Notes under the pieces: model-generated
What the model was told of the DNA's origin: nothing
Seen by the model: the letters and a program-made list of their open reading frames with translations, nothing else
Database searches by the model: none
Origin: an archaeon
Lineage (GTDB): Archaea > Thermoproteota > Nitrososphaeria > Nitrososphaerales > UBA183
DNA length: 64,000 nt
Direction: 5' to 3'
NCBI GenBank assembly: GCA_021828185.1
Contig: JAKASI010000005.1
Span: forward strand, 1 to 64,000
Position numbers and translations under genes: made by a program
In this document: piece after piece, positions 32,615 through 53,203 of the stretch
How the letters are laid out: every line of letters starts with the position of its first letter
Position numbering within the stretch: the first letter of the stretch is position 1

Positions 32615-34492
32615 TTGGCAAAGGGGGATGGGCTTCTCGTCGGTCTGGAGATCCACCAGCAGCTGGCGTGCTCCTCGAAACTCTTCTGCGCCTGTCCGCC
32701 GGTGAAATCTGAAGAATTCCCGTACCACTTCGAGAGGCGCCTGAGGCCTGCCCAGAGCGAGACCGGGCGGCTCGACCCAGCTGCTGTGTTCGAGTTCGCG
32801 AAGGGGAAGTCGAACGTGTACTTCTGGAACCCTGAGTCTTCATGCCTGGTTGAGGCTGATGAAGAGCCCCCTCACCCCCTGAGCCCCGAGGCCTTCGAGG
32901 CGGCAGCTCTCGTCGCACAGGTGCTCGGCTCCAGTGTGGTCGACGAAGTGCACGTGATGAGGAAGATTGTGATCGACGGTTCAAACACCGGAGGGTTCCA
33001 GCGGACGGCCGTCGTGGGCCTGGGGGGGTCTTTCGCCGCCGACAGGGCCCAGGTCGGAGTCCAGTCCGTCACTCTGGAGGAGGATGCGGCCCGAATCCTG
33101 GGAGAAGACGGGGCTTCCAGACGCTTCGCTCTGGACAGGCTAGGGGTCGCCTTGGTGGAGGTTGCCCTTGACCCGGTGAAAGGCGAACCGGAGTTCGTAG
33201 GCAAGGTCGCCCTTCACCTTGGGAGGGTGCTCCGGTCGACGGGACGGGTGGCCCGGGGGCTAGGGACGATAAGGCAGGACCTGAACGTCTCGCTCGACGG
33301 CGGAAACGTTGTGGAGGTCAAGGGGGTCCAGAAGCTCAACCTCGTCTCCAAGGTGGTGGAGTATGAGGGGAGGCGTCAGCGCGCTCTGGTGAGGGTGGCA
33401 GAAGCCCTGAAGGAGAGGAGGGTGCGGGTGAAGTGCAGCACCAGGGACGTCACGGGGACCTTCGCCCAGACCAATTCGGGCGCGCTGAGGCGGTCTCTCC
33501 CGGACGGTGGGATGATAGGATGTGTGGCCGCCTTCGGCCTCGGCGGGGTGCTGGGGTGGGAACCCGAACCCGGGGTTCGCCTGGGCAGGGAGGTTGCCGA
33601 AGTCGCGAGGGCAAACTCCCTGGGCGGGGTCATACACTCCGACGAGTTCGAGAAGCAAGGGGTCTCCGAGACGGAGGCTTCCGCCCTGAGGAGAGCGATG
33701 GGGTGCGGTCCAGGGGACGCGCTCGTCCTCATCGCAGGACCCAGGGAGACCGTCGAACGGGTTCTCCCGCTGATTGAGTCCAGGCTCGAGTTCGCCGCCA
33801 AGGGGGTCCCGGCGGAGACTCGGGCAGCCACCGACGCGGGGGAGACAAGGTACATGCGCCCCCGCCCCGGCTCACAGAGGATGTATCCGGAGACTGACAT
33901 ACCGGACATCTCTGTGACCCCCGGGTTGCGGCGGAAGGTCATCGAAATGGTGCCCGAAGAGTGGACGGCCCTGGTGGGGCGCCTGCAGAGCACCTACGCC
34001 CTCAGCCTGGACATGGCCCTGAAGCTTTACGACTCCGACATGACCGATGAGTTCGAACATCTCATCGGCAGAGTGAAGCTCGAGCCCTCGTTCGTCGCAT
34101 CGGTCCTTGTGGACTTGCCTCAGAGGCTGGCCAGGGAAGGGGTCCCCGAGGCGGGGTACTCGGGCAGGGCCCTCTCCGGGGTGCTGGAAGCCGTGAATGG
34201 CGGGAAGGCAGCGAAGGAGGCCGTTCCGTCGATTCTGGAGCTGGTCGGCACGAAGGGGATTTCGGTGGACGACGCCATTGAGACCCTGAACCTTGGAGCC
34301 CTGGACGAGATGGAGGTGACGCGCCTGGTCACCGCCCTCCTGGCGAAGGAGGCCCAGCTCGTGAAAGAGAAGGGGGGGTCGGCGTTCTCCCAGCTGATGG
34401 GGGAGGCGATGAAGGAGCTCCGTGGCAGGGCCGACGGTGCCACGGTCGCTCGTATCCTGAAGGAGGAGCTCGGCAAGGCACTGGGCGCGTAG
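32615..34492 (+). CDS. gatE: Glutamyl-tRNA(Gln) amidotransferase subunit E
   Basis: This 625-residue protein is the kinase/transamidase subunit of GatDE. LLVGLEIHQQL at the N-terminus and the metal-binding cradle (EVHVMRKIVIDGSNTGGFQRT) are family hallmarks. The middle AspRS-like insertion includes RPRPGSQRMYPETDIPDI, and the C-terminal Yqey-like helical tail reaches KEELGKALGA. It has a TTG start, 13 bases downstream of gatD. Its TAG stop is followed, in the same frame, by 47 Thr-rich codons (see the next entry). Confidence 0.95.
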   Translation: MAKGDGLLVGLEIHQQLACSSKLFCACPPVKSEEFPYHFERRLRPAQSETGRLDPAAVFEFAKGKSNVYFWNPESSCLVEADEEPPHPLSPEAFEAAALVAQVLGSSVVDEVHVMRKIVIDGSNTGGFQRTAVVGLGGSFAADRAQVGVQSVTLEEDAARILGEDGASRRFALDRLGVALVEVALDPVKGEPEFVGKVALHLGRVLRSTGRVARGLGTIRQDLNVSLDGGNVVEVKGVQKLNLVSKVVEYEGRRQRALVRVAEALKERRVRVKCSTRDVTGTFAQTNSGALRRSLPDGGMIGCVAAFGLGGVLGWEPEPGVRLGREVAEVARANSLGGVIHSDEFEKQGVSETEASALRRAMGCGPGDALVLIAGPRETVERVLPLIESRLEFAAKGVPAETRAATDAGETRYMRPRPGSQRMYPETDIPDISVTPGLRRKVIEMVPEEWTALVGRLQSTYALSLDMALKLYDSDMTDEFEHLIGRVKLEPSFVASVLVDLPQRLAREGVPEAGYSGRALSGVLEAVNGGKAAKEAVPSILELVGTKGISVDDAIETLNLGALDEMEVTRLVTALLAKEAQLVKEKGGSAFSQLMGEAMKELRGRADGATVARILKEELGKALGA

Positions 34493-45102: not shown

Positions 45103-46746
45103 CTACAGCAGGTGGCTCAGCGAAGGTGCGCCGAAGGCAGCCATTAGGGTAACGGCGGCGACCGCGAGGGCGACGTTGACGGAGGCCCTGAGGGTGTTCC
45201 TCACAGTGAAGTCGGTCATCTTCGCTCCGATGAGGCCGAGCGAAGCAGCAGCGACTATGATCAGGAGGTCGGAGATCTGGGTCAGCCCCGGGGGGAGCGC
45301 CCCCAGCTGGGCCCCGCCGACGTGAAAGGCCGAAAACCCGGGCGCGACTCTCCTGCTGAAGGAAGAGAGTATTCCCTGGACGAAGGTGATCCCGAAGGCA
45401 AGGAGGAGCGGAGAAATGTACGAAAGGATCAGGTAGGGCTTCATCTCGGCGCCGGTGTTCTCTTTCATCCCGCTGAGCCGCCCCGCGAAGTTCGAAATCT
45501 GGTACACCGTGTCCACAGTCCCTCCTCCTGTCCGGTTCATCTCGCCTAGAAGGAGGAAAGTGATCCTCCCCAGGCCGCTCCTGCACTCCACCCTGACCTC
45601 GTCGAGAGGAACGCCCGCCTTCAGCTGGGCAGCGACCCTTGACAGAAGGCGGGAGAAGCGCTCGCCGTACTTCCCGCTGGCCTCGATGGCCACTATCGCC
45701 CTCACGAGGTCATACTCCTGTCTCTTGTATTCGAGGAGGTCCTTGAGGAACGCCGACACCCCCTCGTCCAGCGCCTTGGTTTCGGCGATCTGCCCCCTTA
45801 CAGACAGCCCGTACGCCGAGAAGAAAACGAATAGCGCGGCCGCCACCCCTGCCCATGCAAGCCCTGTAGCGAGGTCCACGAGGGCCCCGCTGAGCGCCAG
45901 GGCGAGTGCCAGTCCGGCCCTCCCCTGCACGGCGTCTTCGCGGGCCGGCTGCATCCTCCCGGCCATGTAGAGGAGGCCGATCGTGAACACAGGGACACCG
46001 AGGCCGGTGAAGACGACCAGCCCGAACATGGAGAACCCGGGCGAGAAGACCCCCACCACCATGAGAAGCAGAGGGACGACCCCGAACACCGTTATCATCA
46101 TGCTCCCGACGATCCCTGCCCTCTCCGTATACCTCGCCCAGCTCTCCTCGAGGCCACGGAGGAGGGCGCCGCTCTCCCCGACAAGATAGAATGGCACGTC
46201 GCCGCCGCTGCGCGCCTTGCTGGTGTAGCCCAGGAGGAACTCGCTGAACTTCTTCGAGGGGTGGCTGGAGGCGAGCCGCTCGAAGGCGTCGTTCGCGTTC
46301 ATCCCCAACATCTCCACGTCCCTCTTGACCATGAGCGCTTCCTTTCCAATCCAGTGGAAGGTGTCGCCCTTGGCGACGCCCCTGAAGATCGAGTAGAGCG
46401 GGATCCCCGCCCCCCCGAGGACGCTCACTATCATCGCGAAGAATGGGAGTTCCCGTTCGACCCCCTCCCTGCGCTGTGCCGCGAGGTCGCTCAGTCTGAC
46501 CTGGGGGGCCACGACGAACCCCAGGGGGACCGCGGCGACCAACAGGAACAGGGGAGAGAACAACGCCCCCACCAGCGCAGCCGGGACTGCGACAGGTGCC
46601 GATCTGAGCGCGTTCCTCACCGTCCGGGTTGCCATCGCGGTTGGGTTCCCCACCTTCCCCGACCGCCTCAGGAGTTCGGCGAACTTCGCCGACCGGGTCC
46701 GGACCAGGCGGGAAATCAGCGTGCCCTCCGCTACCCGTTCTCCCAA
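45103..46746 (-). CDS. Type IV pilus assembly membrane platform protein (TadC/FlaJ-like)
   Basis: About 547 residues from TTG 46746, which overlaps the ATPase gene by 16 bases. The protein has two T2SF-type domains: in the first, PFFAMIVSVLGGAGIPLYSIFRGVA and HPSKKFSEFLLGY; in the second, LLEYKRQEYDLVRAIVAIEASG and LGEMNRTGGGTVDTVYQISNFAG. Each is followed by clusters of transmembrane helices. It forms the inner-membrane platform on which the ATPase acts. The frame is open upstream, but that part lies inside the ATPase gene. Confidence 0.83.
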   Translation of the reverse strand: MGERVAEGTLISRLVRTRSAKFAELLRRSGKVGNPTAMATRTVRNALRSAPVAVPAALVGALFSPLFLLVAAVPLGFVVAPQVRLSDLAAQRREGVERELPFFAMIVSVLGGAGIPLYSIFRGVAKGDTFHWIGKEALMVKRDVEMLGMNANDAFERLASSHPSKKFSEFLLGYTSKARSGGDVPFYLVGESGALLRGLEESWARYTERAGIVGSMMITVFGVVPLLLMVVGVFSPGFSMFGLVVFTGLGVPVFTIGLLYMAGRMQPAREDAVQGRAGLALALALSGALVDLATGLAWAGVAAALFVFFSAYGLSVRGQIAETKALDEGVSAFLKDLLEYKRQEYDLVRAIVAIEASGKYGERFSRLLSRVAAQLKAGVPLDEVRVECRSGLGRITFLLLGEMNRTGGGTVDTVYQISNFAGRLSGMKENTGAEMKPYLILSYISPLLLAFGITFVQGILSSFSRRVAPGFSAFHVGGAQLGALPPGLTQISDLLIIVAAASLGLIGAKMTDFTVRNTLRASVNVALAVAAVTLMAAFGAPSLSHLL

Positions 46747-48419
46747 CCCTTCTCCGTGCCTCTCATCGACTCCTCCGCCGAGAACTCCCTGACCATCTTC
46801 GAGAGCGCCCGCGGGGTGAAGTCTCCTCCTGCGACCGTGCCTGAAATGCGGGCGGCTCTCGCCGACAGGCTCCTCTGCACCGCGGCCGGGGACCACCCGA
46901 AGCTGTCCGCGATTTCGTTGAGCCTGAATGACCTGTCGAGGACCTCGGCCGCGGTCGTGGGGGAGAAGGAGTCCGCAGCCGGGTCGTAGCGGAACACGTT
47001 GATGATTTCGTGGCCGTCCGAGCTCTGCGGCCTGAGCTCGTCCACGCTCACGACCCTCCTCACGACCCGGCCGTCCTGGAGGACCACTTTCCTCATGGTG
47101 GCGATGGCAGTGATGTCCCTGACGTGCCCCTCGGAGAAGCGCATGGGCGGGGTCTTGAGCCTCTGGACGCACCTCTCGGCGCTCTCCGCGTGTATCGTCG
47201 TCATGGTGGAGAACCCCAGCGTTATGGCCGCTGCCACGGTCTCCGACTCTTCCCCCCTCATCTCACCGAGGCTCAGAATCGTGGGAGAGAAGCGGAGCGC
47301 CAGCTTCAGGAGCTCCGGGAGCCCATATTCGTACCTCGCCGAGGAGGGCGACAGTCCCGCCCTGTAAGACCTGGTCTTCAGTCTCTGCCAGTGCAGCTGG
47401 TCCGGAAGGCTGATCTCGAGGACGTCCTCCGCAGTCACTATCTTGCACTTCGGGTCGGCCAGAGCAAGGATGGCGTTCATCAAGGTGGTCTTCCCCGAGT
47501 TGGTATCCCCTGCGATGAGGACGTTGGTAGTCCTCTCCAGCAGGAGCCAGAAGTAGGCGGCCATGAGGATCGAGAGGGTCTTGTGCGAGTGCACCTCTTC
47601 GTAGGAAGAGGGCGCCTCCTGGGCCCCCTGAAGCGGGAGGGCGGGCCACCTTGCCTTCTCGGGCGCAGCCAGCTGGGCAAGGGTGATGGGGCTCTCCTTC
47701 TGCTTCCGGATGGCATAGGTCGAGCCTGGCCTGGAGATCTCGTCTCCGAGGGTTGCGGTCACCCTCCTGTCTGACACCCCATGCAGGGTGACTTCGAGGG
47801 AGGGCTGGGCCAGGGAGACCGTGGTCCCCCCCAGCTGGGCGAGCCTCCTCACAAATGCCCGGAGCCTCTCCTCCGAGGGGTACAGGATGTCGGTCTCCAT
47901 GAACATGTACTGACTGAAACTGCGGTGCAGCACCCGCACCGGCCGGTCGAAGCGGCAGCATGAAATCTCCTCGAGGTTGTCGTCGTTGAGGAGAGGGTCG
48001 ACCTCCCAGAACCCAGTGAAGTCCCTCATTAGGTAGTAGAGGAGCTTCTCGTGAGAGCCCTCGACGACGTCGGCGATCCCGAGCCCTCCTGCCGACTTCC
48101 AGACGTATTCCGAGACGACTTCTCTCGGGTCTCCGGAAGCCTCGACCGGAATCGAATCGAGCAGGTTGGCGCGAAGAAGCTCGAGGCAGTCCTTCTCGTC
48201 GGGGCTCAGCTTCGGAAGACGGACAAGGTATCTCCCGAGCCCGCCGTCATCGACCACGAAGACCTGGGCTGACGACTCCGGTCCCCCTCCTGCCGGAATC
48301 GTGTAAGTGTCGAGGACCCCCGAGATGTCTTCCGGTGGAGCGGGGGGAGGAGCGCGGCTTGGTTCCGCGCCCCCTTCGCGGAGGCCCTCCTTTCGGAAGA
48401 GCTGCCAGACCTTCGGCAT
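46731..48419 (-). CDS. Type IV pilus/archaellum-type secretion ATPase (VirB11/FlaI family)
   Basis: About 562 residues from ATG 48419 (a GTG two codons earlier is possible). The core shows Walker A (IAGDTNSGKTTLMNAIL), Walker B (TILSLGEMRGEES, the family's degenerate form) and the His box STMTTIHAESAERC. The N-terminal domain contains LLYYLMRDFTGFWEVDPLL, typical of archaeal FlaI/TadA. It powers pilin assembly through the TadC/FlaJ partner. The extra C-terminal 80 residues (RSFRLNEIADSFGWSPAAVQRSL) resemble a small helix-turn-helix-like module. Confidence 0.9.
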   Translation of the reverse strand: MPKVWQLFRKEGLREGGAEPSRAPPPAPPEDISGVLDTYTIPAGGGPESSAQVFVVDDGGLGRYLVRLPKLSPDEKDCLELLRANLLDSIPVEASGDPREVVSEYVWKSAGGLGIADVVEGSHEKLLYYLMRDFTGFWEVDPLLNDDNLEEISCCRFDRPVRVLHRSFSQYMFMETDILYPSEERLRAFVRRLAQLGGTTVSLAQPSLEVTLHGVSDRRVTATLGDEISRPGSTYAIRKQKESPITLAQLAAPEKARWPALPLQGAQEAPSSYEEVHSHKTLSILMAAYFWLLLERTTNVLIAGDTNSGKTTLMNAILALADPKCKIVTAEDVLEISLPDQLHWQRLKTRSYRAGLSPSSARYEYGLPELLKLALRFSPTILSLGEMRGEESETVAAAITLGFSTMTTIHAESAERCVQRLKTPPMRFSEGHVRDITAIATMRKVVLQDGRVVRRVVSVDELRPQSSDGHEIINVFRYDPAADSFSPTTAAEVLDRSFRLNEIADSFGWSPAAVQRSLSARAARISGTVAGGDFTPRALSKMVREFSAEESMRGTEKGWENG

Positions 48420-48442
48420 CCACACAACAGGCCGCGTCCGGC

Positions 48443-50140: not shown

Positions 50141-50242
50141 CTACCTGGGCGACCAGGTCTTCCTGTACGGTCCCCGTCTCCGCCTCCGGGCCTTCTTCTT
50201 CCTGGCGGCGCCGGCGAGCAGGGAGTTCTCGTCCTTGCTCAT
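50141..50242 (-). CDS. 33-residue basic protein coupled to mrp
   Basis: ATG 50242 overlaps the mrp TGA (ATGA), and the frame ends at TAG 50141-50143, one base from the ridA stop. The product is MSKDENSLLAGAARKKKAR followed by RRRRGPYRKTWSPR: a short neutral head and a strongly basic Lys/Arg tail. The start-stop overlap points to real, coupled translation. It could bind RNA or DNA, or be a ribosome-associated factor; no family recognised. Confidence 0.5.
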   Translation of the reverse strand: MSKDENSLLAGAARKKKARRRRRGPYRKTWSPR

Positions 50243-52371
50243 TTCTTCATCTTCGAGAAGGCCACCATGCTGACCATCCCGGCCAGCCTGAACGCCAGGT
50301 CCTTGTACACCTGCGATTCCGGAGAGTCGGGTTTGGCCGCGACCACCGGGACCCCCTTGTCTGACTGCTCCCTGACCGACACCCCGATGGGTATCTCCCC
50401 AAGAAAGTCCACCCCCCTTTCGGCTGCGATCCTCTTCCCGCCCCCGTTTGAGAAGATGTCGGTCCTCTCACCGCAGTGGGGGCAGACGAAGTAGCTCATG
50501 TTCTCGACCACCCCGAGGATCGGCACGTTCAGCTGCCTGAACATTGCCAGGGCCTTCGCAGCTATGTTCAGCGCTGCGTCCTGGGGGGTGGTCACTATCA
50601 GGACCCCTCCGAGGGGGACGGTCTGGGCGAGCGTGAGCGCAGCATCGCCCGTGTTGTGCACAAGGATTGAATCTGCGACGAAGTTCTCCAACTGATCCAC
50701 CTGCAGATCATAGGTTTCCATGGCTCCCAATGGCTCGATGGACTGTATTCTTGACAGCTTGAACGCTCGGGGGTCATGTTTCAGGGAGAACTGGAACCAG
50801 TGACTGGTGACGTTCGTTTTTCTCCTTCCTTCCGGAAGGGTCTGCTCCTCCCGGAAACGCGACTTCACAAGCGACGCTCTCACTCCGCTGATTAGACAGA
50901 GCTCATGGACCTTGTCCACCAGCATGGAATTGGGGCTCTCGACGGTCACGGTGTCCTGGACCACGGTAACCATCCCCTGCAGCCCTCTTGAGTCTGGTAG
51001 AGCCTTCGTCGATTCGCGATGCCGGATGTCAGAGTCGGCCTCGGAGTAGCCCCTGATGAAAGCGAGTCTCTGGTCCAGCGGAAGTGAGAAGACCCAACGC
51101 GGAACTGTCTTCTGGCGAGCCTTGTGGTCCAGGTCGAGCGCCGTGAACAACTCTGCGAGAGGCACCGACGCGACAGCGAACTTCTGCCCCCCGTTCTCAT
51201 CGAAGGTGCGACACTTGAAGACCTTCTTGTAGAGTTCCTCGTACTGCTTCCTGAATCTGCTCCCGCGGGGCTCACAGACTCTCACACCCACAGGTCTGGG
51301 TCTACCCTTCTGCCGCTTCACGAAGCCGTCACCGACGAAATGCCCTACAATGCGCATGAAGTCCGCTGTGGTCTCTGTCGGAAGCTGGATGAATTCTGGA
51401 TCGGACTCCACCTTGGGGAGCCGCATGGGTTGGCCACCTTCAATGCAATTCGGCACGATTATTCTATCCCCGATCTTCAAATGGTCGAGCCTCACCCAAG
51501 AATTCGCCCGGTGATATCGCAAGAACGGGTGATTGGCGCTTGCGACTATCTCTCGGTTTGCCGTCCGTAGCCTGAAGACCTCTTGTGTCCCCTGGGGGAT
51601 GACGCCCAGGACCCTTCTGGGCACGAGCCGTTCACCGTCGTAGCTGAGCACGAACTCCCCGACTTCTATCTTCTCGATCGGTCTTGGGGAATTGTCAGCC
51701 ATGAGCACGCTCGTGCCAGCGGGAAGACACCCCGGCGGAAGATCGCACACTAGGTAGTCGAGCTCTCCCCAGTCAACCTGGGTGAGCAGCTGCCGCACCG
51801 CTCCGGCCACGAGCGGCCCCCGCCAGATGACAGGGGTCTCCTCGTTGTAGAAGAATCCCAGGGAGGCGATCTTGACTCCGAACGCCTCCGGAGGTATGAT
51901 GGATTCGTTCCTCACGTCCGGGGGCCCCTTCACCCCCATCATGAGCGGGATGTTCGGACCGTACACGTCGGCGTCGAGCACCCCCACCTTCGCACCGGAC
52001 GCAGCCAGGGCCACGGCAAGGTTCACGGCAATGGTCGACTTCCCTACTCCTCCCTTGCCGCTGGCGACCGCAATTATGTTCTTGACTCCCTTCAGCATCT
52101 CCGCGTTGGCGTAGTCCCTGGTGGCGAACACCATGGACGACGTCTTCATCTCGACCTTCTTCACGCCAGGGAGGCTCGCCACTGCTTCCCTCGCCGACTC
52201 CTCGAGCCTCGATCTGAGCGGACACGCAGGGGTAGTGAGGTTCAGGGTGAAGGTCACTCTGCTCCCCTCCACCTTGACCCCTTCAATCATGTGGAGCGAG
52301 ACCACGTCCTTTCCGAGCTCAGGGTCCTTCACCCCTGCCAGCGCCCTCAGTACGTCGGCTTCGGTCGTCAT
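50239..52371 (-). CDS. Mrp/ApbC/NBP35-type P-loop ATPase with intein
   Basis: The reading frame has 710 residues, of which 351 are extein. The extein has an N-terminal MIP18-like domain (LAGVKDPELGKDVVSLHMIEG), a deviant Walker A (SGKGGVGKST, residues 104-113), DADVYGPNIP, and the switch motif DLPPGTGD, which is split by the intein. The C-extein has VENMSYFVCPHCGE with the CxxC that holds a bridging [4Fe-4S] cluster. Mrp proteins carry Fe-S clusters to target apoproteins. ATG 52371 is 28 nt from a TATA-like GATTTTAAG; a TTG at 52380 is the alternative. Confidence 0.93.
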   Translation of the reverse strand: MTTEADVLRALAGVKDPELGKDVVSLHMIEGVKVEGSRVTFTLNLTTPACPLRSRLEESAREAVASLPGVKKVEMKTSSMVFATRDYANAEMLKGVKNIIAVASGKGGVGKSTIAVNLAVALAASGAKVGVLDADVYGPNIPLMMGVKGPPDVRNESIIPPEAFGVKIASLGFFYNEETPVIWRGPLVAGAVRQLLTQVDWGELDYLVCDLPPGCLPAGTSVLMADNSPRPIEKIEVGEFVLSYDGERLVPRRVLGVIPQGTQEVFRLRTANREIVASANHPFLRYHRANSWVRLDHLKIGDRIIVPNCIEGGQPMRLPKVESDPEFIQLPTETTADFMRIVGHFVGDGFVKRQKGRPRPVGVRVCEPRGSRFRKQYEELYKKVFKCRTFDENGGQKFAVASVPLAELFTALDLDHKARQKTVPRWVFSLPLDQRLAFIRGYSEADSDIRHRESTKALPDSRGLQGMVTVVQDTVTVESPNSMLVDKVHELCLISGVRASLVKSRFREEQTLPEGRRKTNVTSHWFQFSLKHDPRAFKLSRIQSIEPLGAMETYDLQVDQLENFVADSILVHNTGDAALTLAQTVPLGGVLIVTTPQDAALNIAAKALAMFRQLNVPILGVVENMSYFVCPHCGERTDIFSNGGGKRIAAERGVDFLGEIPIGVSVREQSDKGVPVVAAKPDSPESQVYKDLAFRLAGMVSMVAFSKMKK
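50653..51729 (-). other. Intein in Mrp with LAGLIDADG endonuclease
   Basis: A 359-residue intein interrupts Mrp between DLPPG and TGD. The N-terminal splice block is CLPAGTSVLMADN (Cys1); block B is ASANHPFLRYH, with the usual His; block F is YDLQVDQLENFVADS; block G is ILVHN with the last Asn, and the +1 extein residue is Thr. Between the splice halves lie two LAGLIDADG-like motifs, FMRIVGHFVGDGFV and LAFIRGYSEADSD, so a homing endonuclease is present and looks intact. All residues needed for standard protein splicing are in place. Confidence 0.93.
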
Positions 52372-52438
52372 TCGTACCAAGCCTCTGCTGGGGGCTTAAA
52401 ATCCTAGTCCCGGAATAGACTTTATCGTCACGAGGGAA

Positions 52439-53203
52439 ATGGCGTCTGCCGCGTTGGGAAAGATCGAGGTGATTCCGCTCCCCGGGGTCCCGGAAGTAAG
52501 AGAGGGGGCGGACCTCGGGAAGGTCCTGCTGGCATCGGCGGAGGCGCACGGGGTGAAGCTGGCCGATGGCGATATCGTGGTTGTGAAGCAGAAGGTGGTG
52601 TCGAAGGCCGAGGGAAGGCTGGTCCGCATCGACGCCGTCATCCCTGGGAGAAAGGCGAAGAATCTGGCCAAGAGCCAGGGGAAGGACCCCAGGCTAGTCG
52701 AACTGATCCTTCGCGAGGCGGTCCGTATCGTCAGGGCGGGGCATGGAGTGATAATCACAGAGACCAGGCACGGCTTCGTCTGCGCGAACTCGGGCGTGGA
52801 CCAGTCCAACGTGGGCAGGGGGCTCGTGGCGCTCCTCCCTGTCGACCCCGACAGGAGCGCGAGGAAGCTCAGGCGCGAGCTCGAGCGGGCGACCGGGAAG
52901 ATGTTGGCCGTGGTCGTCTCCGACACCTTCGGCCGTCCCTGGCGGATGGGTCAGACCGACGTGGCCATCGGCTGCTCCGGCATCCTCCCACTCGTCCCCT
53001 ATGCGGGGAAGAGGGACCGCTTCGGCTACGAGCTGCGGGTGACCGAGCCTTCGGTCGCGGACGAGGCGGCCGGGTCGGCGGAGCTTGCCATCGGGAAGCT
53101 CAGGGGGATTCCCGCAGCCGTCGTGCGAGGGGTGGAGTACGTCCGGGGCGAATCGGGGGTCAGGTCGATGATCATGCCGCCCGAAAGGGACCTCTTCAGG
53201 TGA
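52439..53203 (+). CDS. cofE: Coenzyme F420:L-glutamate ligase
   Basis: This 254-residue protein adds glutamate residues to F420-0, a GTP-dependent step. The N-terminus IEVIPLPGVPEVREGADLG, then DGDIVVVKQKVVSKAEGR, RHGFVCANSGVDQSNV and VVVSDTFGRPWRMGQTDVAIG are the CofE motifs with metal- and GTP-binding residues. It opens the cofE-cofD-cofC-amidohydrolase operon; cofD follows after 4 bases. Confidence 0.95.
   Translation: MASAALGKIEVIPLPGVPEVREGADLGKVLLASAEAHGVKLADGDIVVVKQKVVSKAEGRLVRIDAVIPGRKAKNLAKSQGKDPRLVELILREAVRIVRAGHGVIITETRHGFVCANSGVDQSNVGRGLVALLPVDPDRSARKLRRELERATGKMLAVVVSDTFGRPWRMGQTDVAIGCSGILPLVPYAGKRDRFGYELRVTEPSVADEAAGSAELAIGKLRGIPAAVVRGVEYVRGESGVRSMIMPPERDLFR

Follow-up and report, generated by a model that had tools for sequence, protein, structure and literature searches.

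What interrupts the nucleotide-switch motif of an mrp-type gene in an archaeon of the Nitrososphaerales (UBA183), and does it act as a parasite or as a regulator of its host protein? The locus lies in the first 64,000 nucleotides of contig JAKASI010000005.1 (assembly GCA_021828185.1), the whole of which is called the window here, and the interruption is a block of 359 residues inside the DLPPG/TGD motif of an Mrp-type iron-sulfur (Fe-S) carrier ATPase. We consider it highly probable that this block is a class 1 intein in which a LAGLIDADG homing endonuclease is nested, and that it both splices and homes. The gene, the intein and their parts are as follows:

50239-52380, (-) strand: open reading frame of 713 codons from TTG, with no internal stop
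50239..52371, (-) strand: mrp-type gene for the predicted intein precursor, 710 amino acids from the ATG at 52371 (713 from the TTG at 52380)
51730..52371, (-) strand: N-extein, with FeS_assembly_P (DUF59) and the first half of the P-loop nucleoside triphosphatase (NTPase), up to ...DLPPG
52036..52059, (-) strand: GKGGVGKS, the host's deviant Walker A motif
50242..50652, (-) strand: C-extein, from the +1 Thr (TGDAALT...) to the Mrp end
50473..50484, (-) strand: CPHC motif of the host, presumed Fe-S ligand pair, uninterrupted in the window gene
50653..51729, (-) strand: predicted intein at site a, 359 amino acids, CLPAGT...SILVHN, precursor residues 218-576
51727..51729, (-) strand: Cys1, first splicing nucleophile, required by the pattern that selected the alignment rows
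51520..51549, (-) strand: block B IVASANHPFL with His67; His in 122/122 rows, although the selection pattern did not ask for it
51325..51351, (-) strand: LAGLIDADG motif 1 IVGHFVGDG with Asp134, intein residues 127-135; D/E in 113/122 rows
51028..51063, (-) strand: LAGLIDADG motif 2 AFIRGYSEADSD with Asp232; D/E in 105/122 rows
50653..50718, (-) strand: blocks F and G, TYDLQV...VHN, with Asp341, His358 and Asn359; D341 in 122/122 rows

The junction in the window protein reads ...LVCDLPPG / C...HN / TGDAALT..., and subtracting 359 from 710 residues leaves 351 for the predicted ligated product, the size given in the preliminary description of this DNA. The Pfam profile Intein_splicing matched the insert with 53.5 bits (E 3e-14; cut-off 35.8) and Hom_end_hint with 33.2 bits (cut-off 32.1), while the NCBIfam profiles TIGR01443 and TIGR01445 gave 27.8 bits (cut-off 15.6) and 27.5 bits (cut-off 24.5), with the intein N-terminal region starting at residue 218 and the C-terminal region stopping at residue 577. 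That description had placed a 359-residue intein at 50653..51729; the coordinates proved exact, and the splicing profiles of both databases score above their cut-offs, so the resemblance is not due to chance. Its reading of the splicing residues as apparently complete (Cys1, block-B His, terminal Asn and +1 Thr), its two LAGLIDADG motifs and its placement of the site inside the DLPPG/TGD motif were borne out as well. The two motifs are IVGHFVGDG and GYSEADSD, carrying Asp134 and Asp232. The core of the second motif, GYSEADSD, corresponds to intein residues 227-234. The insert has the sequence and fold features of a class 1 intein: Cys1, block B His67, block F Asp341, a terminal HN followed by Thr+1, a Hint fold, and an in-frame position from which it is missing in homologous alleles. 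The results confirm the insert as a predicted intein of a known kind in an mrp-type gene.

Conservation was read from a 122-row intein alignment, for which the selection pattern required Cys1 and the terminal HN; its P rows, like those of the trees and extein-intein comparisons below, are drawn from the best 120 of 3398 matches to the window protein. Of the 119 other proteins in these best 120, 109 have an intein at the same junction. In its predicted structure the insert resembles complete intein-endonucleases, and the motif glycines, both catalytic acids and the predicted endonuclease fold are all intact in the window intein. At least one catalytic acid was lost in 18/122 rows.

The host protein was identified from its own domains. 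The database copy of the protein (P0002) has 710 residues, which matches the ATG at 52371. Pfam placed FeS_assembly_P at precursor residues 7-77 (82.2 bits) and, from residue 99 onwards, PF10609, the NUBPL-type P-loop NTPase (315.7 bits), whose two stretches are separated by the intein splicing domain. PF10609, the deviant Walker A motif and the CPxC pair, the features of Mrp/ApbC/Nbp35 ATPases, are all present, and across 31 aligned rows the Walker A motif varies solely at its two ends, with G/A at the start and S/T at the end. The CPHC cysteines are the Fe-S ligands of Mrp/Nbp35 proteins, and DLPPGTGD is the Walker B/switch II region of this ATPase class; Fe-S cluster binding or transfer is the presumed role of the window protein. 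The host had been described as ApbC/Mrp, and PF10609 bears out that family. ApbC (NF008669) was the best NCBIfam match whether or not the intein was included, but the curated cut-off of 348 bits was missed both ways, at 303.5 bits for the interrupted protein and 327.4 bits for the joined extein. An ApbC equivalog in the strict NCBIfam sense was therefore rejected, and we name the host Mrp-type, ApbC-like.

Related archaea were then compared for the state of the site, using samples of the family, order, class and phylum centred on G002, the genome of a related locus. In the family scan (E <= 1e-20 to the joined extein), an Mrp match was found in 33 of 46 genomes and in none of the other 13. Intein-free and intein-bearing alleles, for which the preliminary description had proposed a search, both occur, with 20 empty and 11 occupied genomes among the 33. 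The site-a intein is present in G001, G002, G003, G004 (whose N-terminal part is missing), G309, G317, G351, G390, G401, G402 and G407, whereas both sites are empty in the 20, of which G222, G333 and G352 gave partial matches. The uninterrupted motif is DLPPGTGD in 19 of these and DLAPGTGD in G352. G304 has only an intein at a second site (site b, below), and the match in G345 stops before the site. In the order sample, 13/400 genomes matched the intein at E <= 1e-25, of which 11 are the occupied family genomes and the other two have inteins of 33-37% identity in apparent histidine ammonia-lyase genes. In the class sample 13/400 genomes matched at E <= 1e-10, and in the phylum sample 6/398 did so at E <= 1e-15, with G002 as the sole close match. 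A wide spread of the close intein through the phylum was not found in these 398 genomes, since the other five matches are 29-34% identical and lie in open reading frames resembling other hosts. Within the order samples the close intein was seen in one family alone, where 11/32 scorable genomes, about a third, carry it.

Several of these alleles deserve mention for themselves. The site-a intein of G317 (L016/L025) is frameshifted, with its C-terminal part in another frame, by either assembly error or real decay. G401 has a separate empty and divergent mrp copy with DLPPGSGD beside the occupied copy (L041, L056), which may be contamination or a real second gene. In the empty mrp of G352 (L045), DLAPGTGD and GKSGVGKS replace the usual DLPPGTGD and GKGGVGKS. 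A second ATPase, 32-41% similar, occurs in 4/33 family genomes (G218, G351, G352 and G402), so Mrp may not be the sole such protein there. The two 33-37% relatives, L018 (G245) and L019 (G222), lie just before the SGD motif of the apparent histidine ammonia-lyase, and the mrp of these family genomes is empty. From their sequences, the phylum-sample hosts read as 2-oxoacid:ferredoxin oxidoreductase beta subunits (L061, L063 and L064) and SufB-like proteins (L060 and L062), all with 29-34% identity.

We propose that the precursor would be translated as a single chain, from which the intein would excise by the Cys1 / Asn359 / Thr+1 route, joining DLPPG to TGD. This would restore the nucleotide-switch motif DLPPGTGD, and the ATPase would then be able to work. 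The endonuclease would recognise the DNA of the uninterrupted DLPPGTGD codons, repair-copying would spread the intein into empty mrp alleles, and the intein would pass through repeated gain, decay and loss. The junction DNA (21 empty and 13 occupied alleles) is conserved chiefly at first and second codon positions, as would be expected where the protein constrains the site. Among more distant Mrp proteins, a 296-residue site-a intein (L020) no longer has recognisable LAGLIDADG motifs, and a 151-residue mini-intein occupies site a in L022. Empty, active-looking, decaying, mini- and double-intein alleles are thus known for one gene.

Movement between lineages was assessed with two sets of trees. 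A quick extein tree was built from 107 of 145 rows; on it, 20 changes are required to explain where site a is occupied, or 21 when it is treated as a group, versus a shuffled mean of 22.7. A careful pair of extein and intein trees was made from 38 rows chosen by hand. In this pair, a 12-row extein clade with support 100/100 was split in the intein tree, and keeping the clade together was rejected by the approximately unbiased test (p-AU 5.7e-10). In addition, P0038 and P0092 are 65% identical in the extein and 85% in the intein. The split clade and these identities argue that the intein family moves between Mrp lineages. Spread independent of the host gene, a mark of homing, is therefore seen for the intein family; the intein of the window, for its part, keeps to its host, with P0003 as its sister in both trees.

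The base composition of the window intein also differs from that of its host gene, with a G+C content at third codon positions (GC3) of 0.71; the extein parts on either side have 0.82 and 0.85, and 11 other open reading frames of the window have 0.78-0.87. The gap is at least 0.10 in 7/11 other loci and near nil in L006, L015, L055 and L020. Where the catalytic acids are lost, in L015, L055 and L020, the intein GC3 is within 0.04 of the extein, although the acid-less L057 and the mini-intein L022 break this rule. Since L022 also shows the gap, GC3 is weak support for recent arrival.

Several points weigh against the proposed splicing and homing. The best-120-of-3398 row set is biased and includes some near-copies. 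On the quick tree, 84 of 500 shuffles were as low as the observed value, and only 10 of the 21 changes are needed when poorly supported branches are disregarded. The 12-row clade was chosen after inspecting earlier tree and correlation results. The extein-intein correlation is low (Spearman 0.12), partly from the choice of rows, and was set aside as support because of this bias; for 10 rows that were not picked by extein similarity it was 0.27 (Mantel p 0.043), a weak positive link. A lower GC3 may be intrinsic to inteins, as it occurs in 7/11 other loci, including the endonuclease-less mini-intein. The window intein and that of P0003, its nearest relative, are sisters in both trees, so the window copy may have been passed down by descent for a while. 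Splicing of the window copy, present-day cutting by its endonuclease and a parasitic rather than regulatory role are inferred.

It is possible, though clearly the less probable reading, that the endonuclease is already dead and that the intein is a vertically inherited passenger in this lineage. The 18/122 rows with a lost acid and the sister relationship to P0003 in both trees fit such a passenger, whereas in the window copy the two acids, the glycines of the motifs and the predicted fold of the endonuclease are all retained. Its GC3 also lies below that of the host, unlike that of the acid-less L015, L055 and L020, with L057 and L022 not fitting the rule. For the homing intein, the sequences themselves show that the splicing set is complete and both endonuclease acids are present, that alleles occur empty as well as occupied, that some inteins have decayed, and that exchange within the intein family has been horizontal.

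The relatives of the intein reach beyond this Mrp subfamily. A search with the intein region alone matched 434 proteins, and PF10609 was present in 117 of the best 120; the remaining three of these 120 have the SufB-type domain PF01458 (P0242, P0243 and P0245) and inteins of 31-33% identity. In the same 120, full-length inteins in PF10609 hosts are 47-84% identical to the window intein, except that of P0244 (33%). Beyond Nitrososphaerota, related inteins lie at DLPPG / TSD in shorter Mrp/Nbp35-like proteins, as in L004 from a Micrarchaeota metagenome-assembled genome, and at DMPPG / TSD in P0238, named Candidatus Marsarchaeota. Compared with the window, P0112, P0114, P0116 and P0120 are 35-38% identical in the extein and 48-54% in the intein, and P0115 and P0117 are 49-51% identical in the extein and 34-37% in the intein. 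These values suggest exchange of the intein across ATPase subfamilies. A viral or plasmid vehicle was rejected, since only distant inteins were found: two environmental viral contigs with inteins of 28% and 33% identity (the former in an apparent terminase open reading frame), 2 plasmid records at 30.2% and 23.1%, and 19 phage records, the best 8 of which are at 24.5% or less.

A different intein of 360 residues splits the CPHC motif as CPH / C...HN / C (site b) in P0107, P0108, P0110, P0113, P0118 and P0122 among the matches listed, and DLPPGTGD is intact in the first five of these. The site-b intein also occurs in L043, and L010 carries site-a and site-b inteins together in one frame of 1076 residues. 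The two Cys of CPHC take up the -3 position (the first) and the +1 position (the second, the nucleophile) of the site-b intein. Among the best 120 of 317 matches, its relatives occupy many hosts. Of the 114 non-Mrp relatives in that set, 107 could be scored and 17 have Cys at -3: 14 in the 20 best-scored (P0123, P0126-P0130, P0132-P0135, P0137, P0138, P0140 and P0141) and 3 in the other 87, with 1.3% Cys further upstream. The junction is CxxxCxx|C in 11 of these 14, presumably the radical S-adenosylmethionine (radical-SAM) pattern. A structure model of the site-b intein had a mean pLDDT (predicted local distance difference test) score of 38.9 from 5 rows and was discarded. The Cys-3/Cys1 arrangement at site b is the strongest lead to regulation, though it is absent from the window. 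Inteins at two sites of Mrp could conceivably control Fe-S delivery through splicing: the site-b intein would act as a Cys-3/Cys1 redox trap and be one branch of an intein lineage specialised on Fe-S ligand CxxC motifs, and the site-a intein of the window would withhold the ATP switch until spliced; we regard this combined proposal as improbable.

The preliminary description had suggested redox- or metal-sensitive control of splicing, which the data do not support. Slow or stress-blocked splicing that times Fe-S carrier activity, so that the intein is kept, is improbable. The site lies in the ATP-switch motif, so the precursor should be inactive, and the intein is common to the window and P0003 by descent. 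Against this, the patchy distribution within one family (11 with and 20 without) argues against an indispensable control device, and intein lineages have spread without following the host gene. A redox trap of the MoaA type was rejected for site a, since the -3 Cys is replaced by Pro in the window intein and the Cys-3/Cys1 trap cannot form; a Cys at -6, present in the window, was found in only 46 of 109 rows, two of which are the window's own protein. That the 359 residues are a genuine Mrp domain or an assembly join, never spliced, is very improbable and is contradicted by the empty alleles (19 with DLPPGTGD and G352 with DLAPGTGD) and by recurrence at the same junction in the 109 other proteins, in addition to which the splicing residues are invariant and the endonuclease residues variable in the 122 rows.

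The intein can be placed among known systems by its hosts and sites. Archaeal VMA inteins with LAGLIDADG endonuclease (TliVMA 7QSU/7QSS and PhoVMA 7QST) are 20-22% identical to it, but their host is the V-ATPase catalytic subunit and the 7QSS chain has 432 residues versus 359. The DnaB/RecA mini-inteins (6FRG, 1MI8 and 3IFJ) are among the best sequence matches of solved structure through the Hint blocks (E 8.8e-8 to 6e-5); their hosts act in replication and recombination and, unlike the window intein, the solved forms lack an endonuclease. The hosts of SufB-type inteins also belong to Fe-S assembly and are the only non-PF10609 hosts among the best 120 of 434 relatives, but host and site differ and their identity is well below that of the full-length PF10609-host inteins. 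The Pyrococcus abyssi MoaA intein has a Cys-3/Cys1 disulfide redox trap according to PMC10663303 and PMC3922620; its arrangement is matched by the site-b Mrp intein of relatives at CPH|C, whereas its trap is unavailable to the window intein, with Pro at -3. For haloarchaeal MCM-a/MCM-d, PMC10643990 reports genes that carry both inteins as well as genes with just one of them, a situation comparable to L010, although host and clade differ from the Mrp case.

As the preliminary description had supposed, host and site are not commonly described: among the papers listed in the literature searched, titles and opening lines of abstracts yielded no description of an intein in Mrp/ApbC/Nbp35 and no splicing test of this protein, and a term search of PMC7765530 and PMC4071816 gave no mention of mrp, apbc or nbp35. 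Ribonucleotide reductase is named as the only intein host in the two species of PMC3087415, and Table 1 of PMC10643990 lists 1 single-intein gene and no multi-intein gene for 18 Thaumarchaeota genomes. The Mrp-type gene seems to be a little-described intein target, invaded at two functional sites by a well-known kind of element. As a kind of element it is ordinary, but its host, the presence of two sites and the variety of homing stages are more unusual. An Mrp-type Fe-S carrier is added to the intein hosts in archaea with almost none listed in that table of PMC10643990, and the site-b family would make the redox-switch idea for inteins in Fe-S ligand motifs testable in a presumed Fe-S delivery protein.

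Elsewhere in the window, the neighbours at 52439, 53208 and 54047 resemble cofE, cofD and cofC of the F420 pathway, as read from their translations. At 45103-48425 on the (-) strand, a gene with the type II/IV secretion ATPase domain PF00437 adjoins one with the T2SSF domain PF00482, a pair that we take to be of archaeal pilus or archaellum type. A GatB/GatE-type amidotransferase is encoded at 32615-34492 on the (+) strand; its catalytic-domain match covers 428 residues on a 277-position profile, so the protein contains an inserted stretch, as GatE does.
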